Origin: a virus
IMG/VR virus record: IMGVR_UViG_3300025840_000356
Coordinates: 1 to 20,009 of that record
Strand: one strand, 5' to 3'
DNA: 20,009 nt
The position numbers and the translations under genes were made by a program. Below, piece by piece: positions 3,951 through 18,179 of this stretch (position 1 is its first letter; every line of letters begins with the position of its first letter). The notes under the pieces were generated by a model. The model searched no databases, was not told where the DNA came from, and saw only the letters and a list, made by a program, of their open reading frames with translations.

Positions 3951-4760
3951 ATGGCTAATACTATCGATCAAGCCTTTATCAAGCAGTTTGAAACCGAAGT
4001 TCACATGGCGTATCAGCGTATGGGTTCTAAGCTACGGAATACCGTTCGTACTTCAAATGTGACAGGTTCAGTTGCTCGTTTCCAAGTAATTGGAAAAGGC
4101 ATAGCAAATACTAAATCCCGCAACGGTAATGTAACTCCAATGGAGTTGGCGCATACAAATGTTGAAGCTACTATGGCTGACTACTATGCACCTGAGTACA
4201 TTGACAAGCTGGACGAGTTGAAGATCAACATCAACGAGCGTCAAGCTGTTGCGCAATCCGCTGCTGCTGCTCTTGGTCGTAAGACTGACGAGATTCTTAC
4301 AACAGCAATGGATGCTGGTGCAAACTCATCACAAATCCACGACACTGGTTCTGCGCTTGAAAAAGCAGACTTGCTGTCTTTGTTTGAAACATTCGGTAAT
4401 GCTGACATCCCAGAAGACGGACAGCGTTATCTTGCAATGTCTCCAGCAGGATTTGCTGACTTGTTTGCAATCAATGAGTTCGCAAGCTCTGACTATGTTG
4501 GACCACAGAACCTGCCATACGCAGGTGGTATGACAATGAAAGAGTTCTTGGGCTTTAAAATCTTCTCTACATCGGCAGTCGCTGGTGGCAAAAACTTTGC
4601 TTACCATACAACTGCTGTTGGCCTTGGCATCAATGCTGATGTTCAAACTGAGGTCAACTACGTTGCAGAGAAAGTTTCACACCTTGCAACATCAATGATG
4701 TCCATGGGTGCTGTCGTTATTGATGACGATGGTGTCTATGAAGTCCTTGATAACAACTAA
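3951..4760 (+). CDS. Major capsid protein
   Basis: This 269-residue protein is the predicted HK97-fold shell subunit. Seen: MANTIDQAFIKQFETEVH at the N-terminus, followed by AYQRMGSKLRNTVR; a GNVTPMEL segment, then YYAPEYIDKLDELKIN (about residues 82-97). An Ala-rich helix QSAAAALGRKTDEILTTAMD follows (about residues 104-123), and the C-terminal part reads SHLATSMMSMGAVVIDDDGVYEV. These fit capsid proteins of marine podoviruses and related siphoviruses. It is shorter than T7 gp10A (345). No propeptide or frameshifted long form is evident. It follows the scaffold and gp13-like genes and is 11 bases ahead of a small capsid-linked gene. The codon pattern looks slightly richer in C-ending codons than the internal virion genes, as expected for strong expression; this was judged by eye only. 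Confidence 0.92.
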   Translation: MANTIDQAFIKQFETEVHMAYQRMGSKLRNTVRTSNVTGSVARFQVIGKGIANTKSRNGNVTPMELAHTNVEATMADYYAPEYIDKLDELKININERQAVAQSAAAALGRKTDEILTTAMDAGANSSQIHDTGSALEKADLLSLFETFGNADIPEDGQRYLAMSPAGFADLFAINEFASSDYVGPQNLPYAGGMTMKEFLGFKIFSTSAVAGGKNFAYHTTAVGLGINADVQTEVNYVAEKVSHLATSMMSMGAVVIDDDGVYEVLDNN

Positions 4761-4771
4761 GGAGATAGATC

Positions 4772-5035
4772 ATGGCTTATGCAGCAAGTGGACTAACTCG
4801 CGTTGGTGGTGATTCAAACGGAAGTCTGTGGATGTACACAACTACTGATCCAATCGCAGACATCAACACAACTGGTTATTTCAACAACGCAGCAGACATG
4901 CTGTCAGTTCGCGATCTAATCATTGTGCGTGACACGAATGTTCCAACCACTAACTTTTGCACCGTTCTTTCGAACACTGGAACTGTTGTAGACGTATCTG
5001 ATGGTACGGCTGTTGCAGAAACAGATGGTGACTAA
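4772..5035 (+). CDS. Small capsid-associated (head decoration-like) hypothetical protein
   Basis: This 87-residue Thr/Asp/Asn-rich, acidic protein is probably all-beta. Seen: a WMYTTTDPIADINTTGYFNN stretch (about residues 20-39), then a DMLSVRDLIIVRD strand pair. Proteins with this GYF-N-A-ML-V-D-I pattern follow the capsid gene in many marine phages and are usually annotated only as structural or hypothetical. A head decoration or fibre role is inferred from position. A strong ribosome site AAGGAGA lies just after the capsid stop, and the gene ends in a tandem TAATAA stop directly before a hairpin, consistent with it closing the head module. Confidence 0.7.
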   Translation: MAYAASGLTRVGGDSNGSLWMYTTTDPIADINTTGYFNNAADMLSVRDLIIVRDTNVPTTNFCTVLSNTGTVVDVSDGTAVAETDGD

Positions 5036-5036
5036 T

Positions 5037-5068
5037 AAAGGGATGGGGGCTTCGGCCCCCAAACTACT
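5037..5068 (+). promoter_or_regulatory. UUCG hairpin between head and tail genes (possible attenuator or SD-bringing structure)
   Basis: GGGGGC (5045-5050), TTCG (5051-5054) and GCCCCC (5055-5060) form a perfect six-pair GC stem with an extra-stable UUCG loop. No T-run follows (AAACTACT), so it is not a standard intrinsic terminator. T7 has its main terminator at the same place, after the capsid gene. AAAGGGA (5037-5043) is the only Shine-Dalgarno-like sequence before the ATG at 5069. It is too far away in linear sequence but about 10 bases away if the stem is folded out. Confidence 0.7.
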
Positions 5069-5653
5069 ATGCCTGATGTAGCAAACACACCGATAAAAAT
5101 ATGCTCTCGCGCATCTCTCTTGATTGGAGGTGACGCGATTCAGTCTTTTGAGGATGGCACTGCTGAAGCGACAGTAAGCTCTGCTATGTATGAAGACATG
5201 GCACGCTCTGCATTGACCAACTCTCGTTGGCGCTTTGCAACAGATCAGGCGATTTTAAACAGATTGGCTGATGCTCCAACTGGACGCTTTGATGCTGCGT
5301 ATCAGCTACCTTCTGAGTTTATTATGCTTTCTGGCGTTACTGTAGACGAGCGCCCTATCAAGTATGATCTTTATGGCAGCAAAGTTTTCTGTGATGCGGT
5401 AGCAACTGACACGGTTATTGCCGACTATGTATTTAGGGCTGATGAGTCTACTTGGCCTCCATATTTTGTAACGGCTGTTGAATATATGATGGCTGGTGTT
5501 CTGGCTGTATCTGTTGCTCGGGATGCAACCCTAGCCAGCTTGATGGATAACAAAGCCAACTTTCAAATGATCCAAGCTAGACGTTTACACTCACAACAAC
5601 AGACAACCCGCAAACTGGATACATCGAGGTTTATTGCTGAAAGGCGTAGTTAA
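5069..5653 (+). CDS. Tail tubular protein A (T7 gp11-like)
   Basis: This 194-residue protein matches T7 gp11 in length (196) and kind. It forms the ring that joins the portal to the tail nozzle. Seen: an N-terminal segment ICSRASLLIGGDAIQSFED, then AMYEDMARSALTNSRWRFA around residues 38-56, which is the hallmark Y---R---L---W-FA pattern, followed by AYQLPSEFIMLSGV in the middle and a charged helical end. The ATG at 5069 is the only good start, yet no ribosome site lies at normal distance; see the hairpin entry. The stop overlaps the next start as TAATG, coupling it to tail tubular protein B. Confidence 0.9.
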   Translation: MPDVANTPIKICSRASLLIGGDAIQSFEDGTAEATVSSAMYEDMARSALTNSRWRFATDQAILNRLADAPTGRFDAAYQLPSEFIMLSGVTVDERPIKYDLYGSKVFCDAVATDTVIADYVFRADESTWPPYFVTAVEYMMAGVLAVSVARDATLASLMDNKANFQMIQARRLHSQQQTTRKLDTSRFIAERRS

Positions 5654-17324: not shown

Positions 17325-18179
17325 ATGACTATCAAACAGCAAGGTGGCATTTTTGGACGCAACCCAACATTCAATGAAGTTGATATTGAAGGCACTCTTA
17401 GTGCAGAAACGGTTGATATTAACGGAGGCACTATCGATGGCACAGCTATCGGCGGGACTACACCCGCAGCCATTATTGGGACGGCTATGGAGGCTTCTAG
17501 CTTGGGGATTGGAACAACCCCTTCAGGCGGGGTTAAGTTAGACGTTGTAGGCACTTTGCGTTCAACTATTTCTGGTGGAACACCTGCTCTTTATTTGAAT
17601 AATGGAACAACTCAAAACTCCATTACAAATACATCGGGCAGTTTTTCATTTTCTACTGGGGCTGTAGAACGTTTGCGCATCGACACCAGTAATGTAACAG
17701 TATCCACTGGCAACCTCGTCATCGGCACATCAGGCAAAGGCATCGACTTCTCTGTCACCTCTGGCACTGGCACAAGTGAACTGTTCGATGACTATGAAGA
17801 GGGGACGTGGACGCCTGAGATCACAGGCACAAGCACAGCAGGCACAATCGCATACAACGCCCAGCACGGGTATTACACTAAGATTGGCCGAATGGTGCAG
17901 GTTGAGTTCTATGTTCAGTGGAACAGTGGAACTGGCACGGGCAACCTTCAAATTACAGGTTTGCCGTTCACCGCAGGCAACAATCTCACCCAACCGGGAT
18001 TGGCTATTGGCGACATTGAAAATGTAGCACTCACAGCCGCTAATGTCGCAACGCTTGCAGTAGCCAGCAACAGCACGAACATCAATATGCGGCAGGTTCC
18101 AACGGGCGGCGGAGGTTCTTCGCCAGTTCCTTATGATGCTGCTGGCTATATCAAAGCATCTGGCGTTTATTCAGTTTAA
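17325..18179 (+). CDS. Second tail fibre / adhesin protein
   Basis: This 284-residue Gly/Thr/Ser-rich beta protein has three parts. The N-terminal MTIKQQGGIFGRNPTFNEVD peptide with the following IEGTL is, from memory, a recurrent opening of marine phage fibre proteins and may be a docking segment. The middle (about 25-135) is a repetitive beta region (GTTPAAIIGT, GGTPALYLNNGTTQN, VERLRIDTSNV). The end (about 138-284) opens with KGIDFSVTSGTGTSELFDDY, then EGTWTPEITG, and has a YYTKIGRMVQVEFYVQW beta-sandwich region and TGLPFTAGN, a common phage C-terminal adhesin domain. It has no T7-type tail-attachment domain of its own, so it probably docks on another fibre protein. The second half is richer in GC (53% over 17701-17760). 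Confidence 0.82.
   Translation: MTIKQQGGIFGRNPTFNEVDIEGTLSAETVDINGGTIDGTAIGGTTPAAIIGTAMEASSLGIGTTPSGGVKLDVVGTLRSTISGGTPALYLNNGTTQNSITNTSGSFSFSTGAVERLRIDTSNVTVSTGNLVIGTSGKGIDFSVTSGTGTSELFDDYEEGTWTPEITGTSTAGTIAYNAQHGYYTKIGRMVQVEFYVQWNSGTGTGNLQITGLPFTAGNNLTQPGLAIGDIENVALTAANVATLAVASNSTNINMRQVPTGGGGSSPVPYDAAGYIKASGVYSV

Follow-up and report, generated by a model that had tools for sequence, protein, structure and literature searches.

The leader of the tail tubular protein A gene that we analyzed most likely constitutes a split, hairpin-bridged ribosome binding site, the stem of which would have been inherited from an older hairpin following the capsid stop codon. The gene lies in a 20,009-base virus record (IMGVR_UViG_3300025840_000356, positions 1 to 20,009; the window). 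Specifically, the tail of 16S rRNA would pair with AAGGG at 5038-5042, just past the upstream stop codon, while the UUCG-capped stem at 5044-5061 would remain folded and be looped out, placing AUG 5069 at 8 nt instead of 26 nt from the Shine-Dalgarno sequence (SD). Bridging is supported because in relatives the SD lies on either one side of the stem or the other, because the SD-AUG spacing is constant once the stem is excised, and because the stem covaries. The stem itself would descend from an older hairpin right after the stop codon of the capsid gene (or of the capsid gene plus the gene of a small protein), and in the window's lineage a U tract and a downstream SD would have been lost and the SD shifted to the 5' side of the stem.

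A distant SD and a stable stem precede the tail tubular A gene

The genes in this region of the window follow the order podovirus-type portal, scaffold-like, capsid, 87-aa ORF, tail tubular A, and tail tubular B; the features of the leader and its neighbors are listed in Table 1. ATG 5069 is the first ATG, GTG or TTG of its frame, and an upstream in-frame start is ruled out by UAA at 5036-5038. A leader peptide from AUG 5043 was also rejected: it overlaps the stem, comprises only 12 codons, and is not kept in relatives, which have GGAUUGG or GGGCGGG. As a separate observation, the 87-aa ORF and tail tubular A share their reading frame, and 5033-5038 reads as a double in-frame stop, UAAUAA. An SD at normal spacing precedes most of the window's clear genes, with anti-SD energies of -4.6 to -11.6 for most of the clear structural genes; tail tubular A has none, the best anti-SD energy in the 24 nt before ATG 5069 being -1.7.

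Table 1 Features of the tail tubular A leader and its neighboring genes in the window.
Feature	Position	Strand	Basis and remarks
Major capsid protein gene	3951..4760	+	PHROG 3437 major head protein, E 8e-58; upstream neighbor
87-aa ORF, function unassigned	4772..5035	+	phrog_18004, E 1.4e-22; own strong SD AAGGAG
Candidate remote SD AAGGG, inside AAAGGGA 5037-5043	5038..5042	+	Sequence; relatives
Stem-loop UGGGGGC-UUCG-GCCCCCA	5044..5061	+	Predicted pairing probability and pairing in relatives
Spacer AACUACU, seven nt single-stranded, stem to start codon	5062..5068	+	Without SD, without U tract
Tail tubular protein A gene, AUG 5069-5071	5069..5653	+	PHROG 394 tail protein, E 6.6e-34; N-terminus alignment with relatives

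An initial annotation of the sequence had described AAAGGGA, the stem, its UUCG loop, ATG 5069, and the 26-nt distance correctly to the base. It had also stated that the eight bases before the ATG hold no ribosome site; these bases indeed lack an SD, but the first of the supposedly free bases, A5061, is paired, because the stem (GGGGGC 5045-5050, UUCG 5051-5054, GCCCCC 5055-5060) has an additional closing pair, U5044-A5061, and thus seven pairs. The remote SD is located directly after the stop codon of the 87-aa ORF (UAA 5033-5035, 33 nt before the AUG) and before the stem. Counted from the last G of AAGGG, the gap to the AUG is 26 nt in the linear sequence and 8 nt with the stem excised; the spacing upon folding is normal, as proposed, but not the suggested value of about 10 nt. 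We infer that the host of this virus uses the remote SD from the SDs of the other genes in the window.

In a predicted fold of 200 nt, the stem at 5044-5061 has pairing probabilities of 0.95-1.0, and six of its seven pairs are G-C. The 16-nt palindrome occurs once in the 20 kb, with none expected in shuffles. Because a G run and a C run pair readily, the single-sequence fold is not exceptional compared to shuffles (z -1.4), and the case for the hairpin rests on conservation, not on this fold. A known RNA family was rejected as the identity of the hairpin; a search of Rfam returned no match above the gathering score anywhere in the window.

The hairpin is conserved in relatives through compensatory changes

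Loci encoding tail tubular A were collected by a viral-contig scan (80 loci), a profile scan (80 more), and a genome scan (5), and the two annotated phages Hodr and MEP301 were added. A hairpin is present between the upstream stop codon and the tail tubular A start in 161 of the 161 leaders with enough upstream sequence; two of them, L133 and L156, have a different stem with a long loop instead. Hairpins were called as a contiguous core; a caller based on the lowest-energy fold had fused the core stem with weak pairs outside it, and the contiguous-core caller itself is wrong for L133 and L156 and takes in A-U pairs in L154/L164.

Among the 38 distinct bridged hairpins with a four-base loop, each with seven pairs, pairing is retained in all 266 of 266 cells. 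The foot pair can be G-C, U-A, A-U, or C-G and the loop-closing pair C-G, U-G, G-C, or U-A; two-sided changes affect 25 cells in three pairs. The covariation score is higher than in all 500 shuffles (0/500 reach it) and in all slid registers. Because the loop sequence varies freely (UUCG, UUAG, UUUG, UACG, AAAA, GAAA, and others), the important element would seem to be the helix and not the loop. A chance palindrome of a G run and a C run beside the start codon, for which the fold z of only -1.4 could be cited, is already refuted by this comparison, considering that the hairpin recurs in all 161 leaders, shows compensatory changes, and is unique in the window; we give chance practically no weight.

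Just outside the stem, pairing is inconsistent (9 of 38 hairpins at the ninth position from the loop). This bears on a translational brake, by which the hairpin would shield the SD and the AUG and thereby keep tail tubular A low relative to capsid. In the 200-nt fold, the predicted pairing of G5040-G5041 exceeds 90%; their most likely partners are C5064-U5065, on the other side of an internal loop, and this extension of the stem would partly hide the SD. However, the extension comprises only two pairs in a region without consistent pairing, and a brake does not require a normal excised spacing; we consider such a brake quite improbable.

Beyond the closer relatives, a strong hairpin stands at the same place in 45 of 55 distant homologues. 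Stemless leaders with an ordinary SD, which the initial annotation would have taken as evidence against bridging, do occur, but only in distant homologues (L084-L087; seven of ten stemless homologues). The stem of T4 gene 25 is likewise conserved in close T-even phages only and absent in distant ones (PMC3014915).

The side of the SD follows the stem-to-AUG gap

For counts of gaps and SDs, the leaders were collapsed to 92 distinct ones. Among these, the stem-to-AUG gap is bimodal, measuring 6-10 nt in 53 leaders and at least 17 nt in 39, and no leader has a gap of 11-16 nt. In none of the 53 short-gap leaders does an SD follow the stem; in 48, an SD-like tetramer stands in the 8 nt that precede it, and the other five are without a clear SD tetramer (e.g., UUGG, UGGG, UAGAG). 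Conversely, an ordinary SD follows the stem in 38 of the 39 long-gap leaders, and SD-like letters precede it in six (Fisher 1.5e-13 for an upstream SD in short- versus long-gap leaders, a value to be read in light of the kinship among leaders). The 39 distant long-gap homologues have the SD after the hairpin in 32 cases and before it in none. In a set of 74 leaders consisting of the short-gap leaders, the L190 clade, and a few distant homologues, the tetramer precedes the stem in 66, compared to 21.9 expected from shuffled pre-stem letters. Of note, all 15 leaders of a second tail tubular A clade are bridged, with SDs of the AAGGAG/AAGGGG type.

In 67 bridged leaders, in which the hairpins are 18-34 nt long, the raw SD-AUG spacing is 27.9 +/- 3.3 nt (range 25 to 41 nt) and the excised spacing is 7.9 +/- 1.4 nt. 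Even the hairpins of L158 (34 nt) and L161 (32 nt), both with 14-nt loops, leave an excised spacing of 7 nt. Because the ordinary SDs of the long-gap relatives have an aligned spacing of 6-9 nt, the bridged SDs reach the normal range only with the stem excised. The proposal that the hairpin brings a remote SD to the start is well supported: the SD is found on one side of the stem or the other, its excised spacing stays constant, and the stem covaries. The comparison of relatives that had been suggested as a check reveals a stem and a spacing that are both preserved.

We also considered translational coupling, in which ribosomes ending at UAA 5033-5035 would unfold the stem, be held by AAGGG, and reinitiate at AUG 5069 with the stem unfolded. 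The position of the SD right after the stop codon and the stop-to-AUG distance of 33 nt are compatible with coupling, and the stem, which begins 8 nt past the UAA, is within reach of a terminating ribosome that may open it; coupling via such neighborhoods of stop codon, SD, and start codon is documented (PMC12548453). Yet coupling gives no reason for a kept, covarying stem or for the excised spacing, and it is lowered by structure just past the stop codon, as found in a library screen cited in PMC12548453. That coupling plays a material part is therefore rather unlikely in our view, and if it does, it may act together with bridging.

The stem probably derives from a terminator-like hairpin after the capsid gene

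The stem has a constant place relative to the upstream stop codon, lying 2-8 nt past it whichever the architecture, apart from a single case at 18 nt, and the distance in long-gap leaders (mostly 5-8 nt) is nearly that of the bridged class. Long-gap relatives retain the stem, which is often followed by a U-rich tail, then the SD and the AUG, and the T content of the 9 nt after the stem is 4.8 in long-gap versus 2.6 in bridged leaders (p 6e-10). In T7, the region between capsid gene 10 and gene 11 has the succession of stop codon, T-phi, U run, SD, and AUG. The window shares with T7 the neighborhood (major capsid, then tail tubular A) and a strong hairpin at the same place, and the long-gap relatives share the whole order; the window differs in that its stem has no U tract and its SD precedes the stem. 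A further difference from T7 is that no T7-type RNA polymerase (PF00940) was found in 13 long relatives or in two isolates, whereas the T7 positive control matches; a terminator for a phage polymerase was therefore rejected (0 of 15 records match).

The stem coexists with an ordinary SD in many closer relatives, which shows that it has a role older than bridging or additional to it; judged from these leaders, it cannot exist for bridging alone. In long-gap relatives, the hairpin probably serves, in the manner of T7 T-phi, as a partial terminator or an element of the 3' end. The simplest history that we infer would begin with a terminator-like hairpin downstream of the capsid gene; this hairpin would later have become the spacer of a split site in some lineages, including that of the window.

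It could be argued that the hairpin is still nothing other than a terminator or a 3'-end or processing element of the capsid transcript, that the upstream purines are incidental, and that tail tubular A starts by another route. The similar place of the stem in both architectures, its retention in long-gap relatives with an ordinary SD and often a U-rich tail, the strong hairpins of most distant homologues, and T-phi at the same place in T7 all agree with this, and with no T7-type polymerase found in the 13 long relatives, host-type termination is plausible. However, no U run directly follows the window stem on the + strand, where AACUACU stands instead, and a terminator scan lists the window hairpin on the - strand only. 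Moreover, a terminator alone leaves unexplained why an SD precedes the stem exactly when none follows it and why the excised spacing is constant. We consider this alternative improbable and suggest that a terminator role probably explains the origin of the stem rather than its present use in the window. The partial terminator suggested in the initial annotation fits the long-gap relatives, given their U-rich tails, far better than it fits the window.

On a tree of the tail tubular A protein, six changes of architecture are needed, of which at least five are forced by well-supported branches; changes counted in this way cannot separate gain from loss. Among five independent pairs, an average of 4.5 combine the upstream SD with the short gap, and essentially none shows the opposite combination (sign test, median p 0.06; with five pairs, 0.05 is out of reach). 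The loci L112 (bridged) and L113 (ordinary) encode identical tail tubular A proteins and differ in the upstream sequence. We rejected the small upstream gene as an explanation for the switch, since its presence is not consistently associated with the architecture. Separately, we observed that the 87-aa ORF (phrog_18004) is optional: about a third of the relatives whose upstream gene is readable lack it and have the hairpin directly after the capsid stop codon.

As a tentative extension, for which we would not claim quite even chances, terminator hairpins may have been converted repeatedly into split-site spacers by shortening of the downstream leader and movement of the SD across the stem. Phages would then switch back and forth between a terminator with an ordinary ribosome binding site and a bridged ribosome binding site, and swap transcriptional for translational control of tail versus capsid. 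If this were true, similar arrangements in unrelated phage genes would reflect a common route to such sites.

Similar hairpins precede unrelated genes

A scan for AGGAG followed by a GGGGC-UUCG-GCCCC stem, 6-10 nt, and AUG gave at least 87 listed matches, at least 78 of which open an ORF of at least 60 aa. Among the matches listed are genes unrelated to tail tubular A, namely a 92-aa HTH-like family, a Cas4-type exonuclease, and a 776-aa phrog_2220 protein. When the scan was not conditioned on an SD, SD-like letters preceded the stem at 12 of 30 gene starts versus 7 of the 83 remaining places (p 2.4e-4). Every tail tubular A start found in this way had such letters before the stem. In unrelated gene families, a hairpin also lies 6-9 nt before the AUG without an SD on either side. 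Because such families exist, bridging cannot be concluded from a hairpin close to an AUG alone, and the succession of SD, hairpin, and AUG is not a universal rule.

The 92-aa family (L181:3975-4250 and its relatives L515-L594), which is unrelated to tail tubular A and weakly matches the PHROG 8 transcriptional regulator, has one subclade with SD, hairpin, and AUG, while in other subclades ACCCCCACC lies a short distance ahead of the AUG and there is no SD. A 60-78-aa phage protein with an HPxHGxKVA motif (L295, L299, L311, L313, L360, and others) starts 6-11 nt past a stem of the GGGGC-UUCG-GCCCC type, mostly without an SD on either side. Within the window, another hairpin (GGCGGAGG-UUC-UUCGCC, 18108-18124) lies just upstream of an ORF at 18133; this ORF has no SD other than the GGAGG inside the 5' arm of the hairpin, and its ribosome site may be sequestered or bridged.

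Discussion

Split ("accommodated") ribosome binding sites have been described in phage T4 (Nivinskas 1999; Malys and Nivinskas 2009; both as reviewed in PMC3014915), and our search of the open-access literature found no earlier description for the phages studied here. The initial annotation was right to compare the leader with T4 gene 38, in which a stem reduces the SD-AUG gap from 22 to 5 nt; gene 25, with a reduction from 27 to 11 nt (PMC3014915), is an even closer precedent for the 26 and 8 nt in the window, and phage tail genes are involved in both systems. As far as can be tested by sequence, the window leader has every defining feature of the gene 25 and gene 38 sites: the SD is too distant and none is nearer, a stable stem normalizes the spacing, and the stem is conserved through pair changes. 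The phages and the gene are unrelated to those of T4, and the nature of the evidence differs. In T4, mutations that destabilize the stems of genes 38 and 25 lower initiation, and for gene 25 there is also evidence from lacZ reporters and DMS probing (PMC3014915), whereas the window leader is described here from the comparison of sequences. The leaders described here differ from those of T4 also in that the stem is kept together with an ordinary SD, the SD has switched sides several times, and the stem looks terminator-derived. The split site of E. coli thrS is alike in that the ribosome accommodates a folded hairpin within its binding region; it differs in that its 5' leader is long and comprises large structures as well as several standby-site modules, in place of a 26-nt gap closed by a small stem (PMC3936740).

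By comparison of relatives, the stem, the side of the SD, the spacing, and the switching between architectures are established features of these leaders, and ribosomes would use the bridged site in the manner outlined above; control of the tail-to-capsid ratio by the hairpin, as proposed in the initial annotation, is possible. Gene callers and predictors of ribosome binding sites that score only the last ~20 nt would label starts of this type as lacking a ribosome binding site. In the record of the phage Hodr isolate, a ribosome binding site is annotated for several neighboring genes and none for the tail tubular A homologue. Hairpin-bridged sites are known from a few T4 genes, and the relatives analyzed here provide natural variants in the loop, the foot pair, the hairpin length, and the side of the SD that can serve as a test set. 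We suggest that the tail tubular A leader would be a broadly conserved bridged site across dozens of related marine podoviruses, and that it offers a testable account of how split sites may arise from a terminator-like hairpin.
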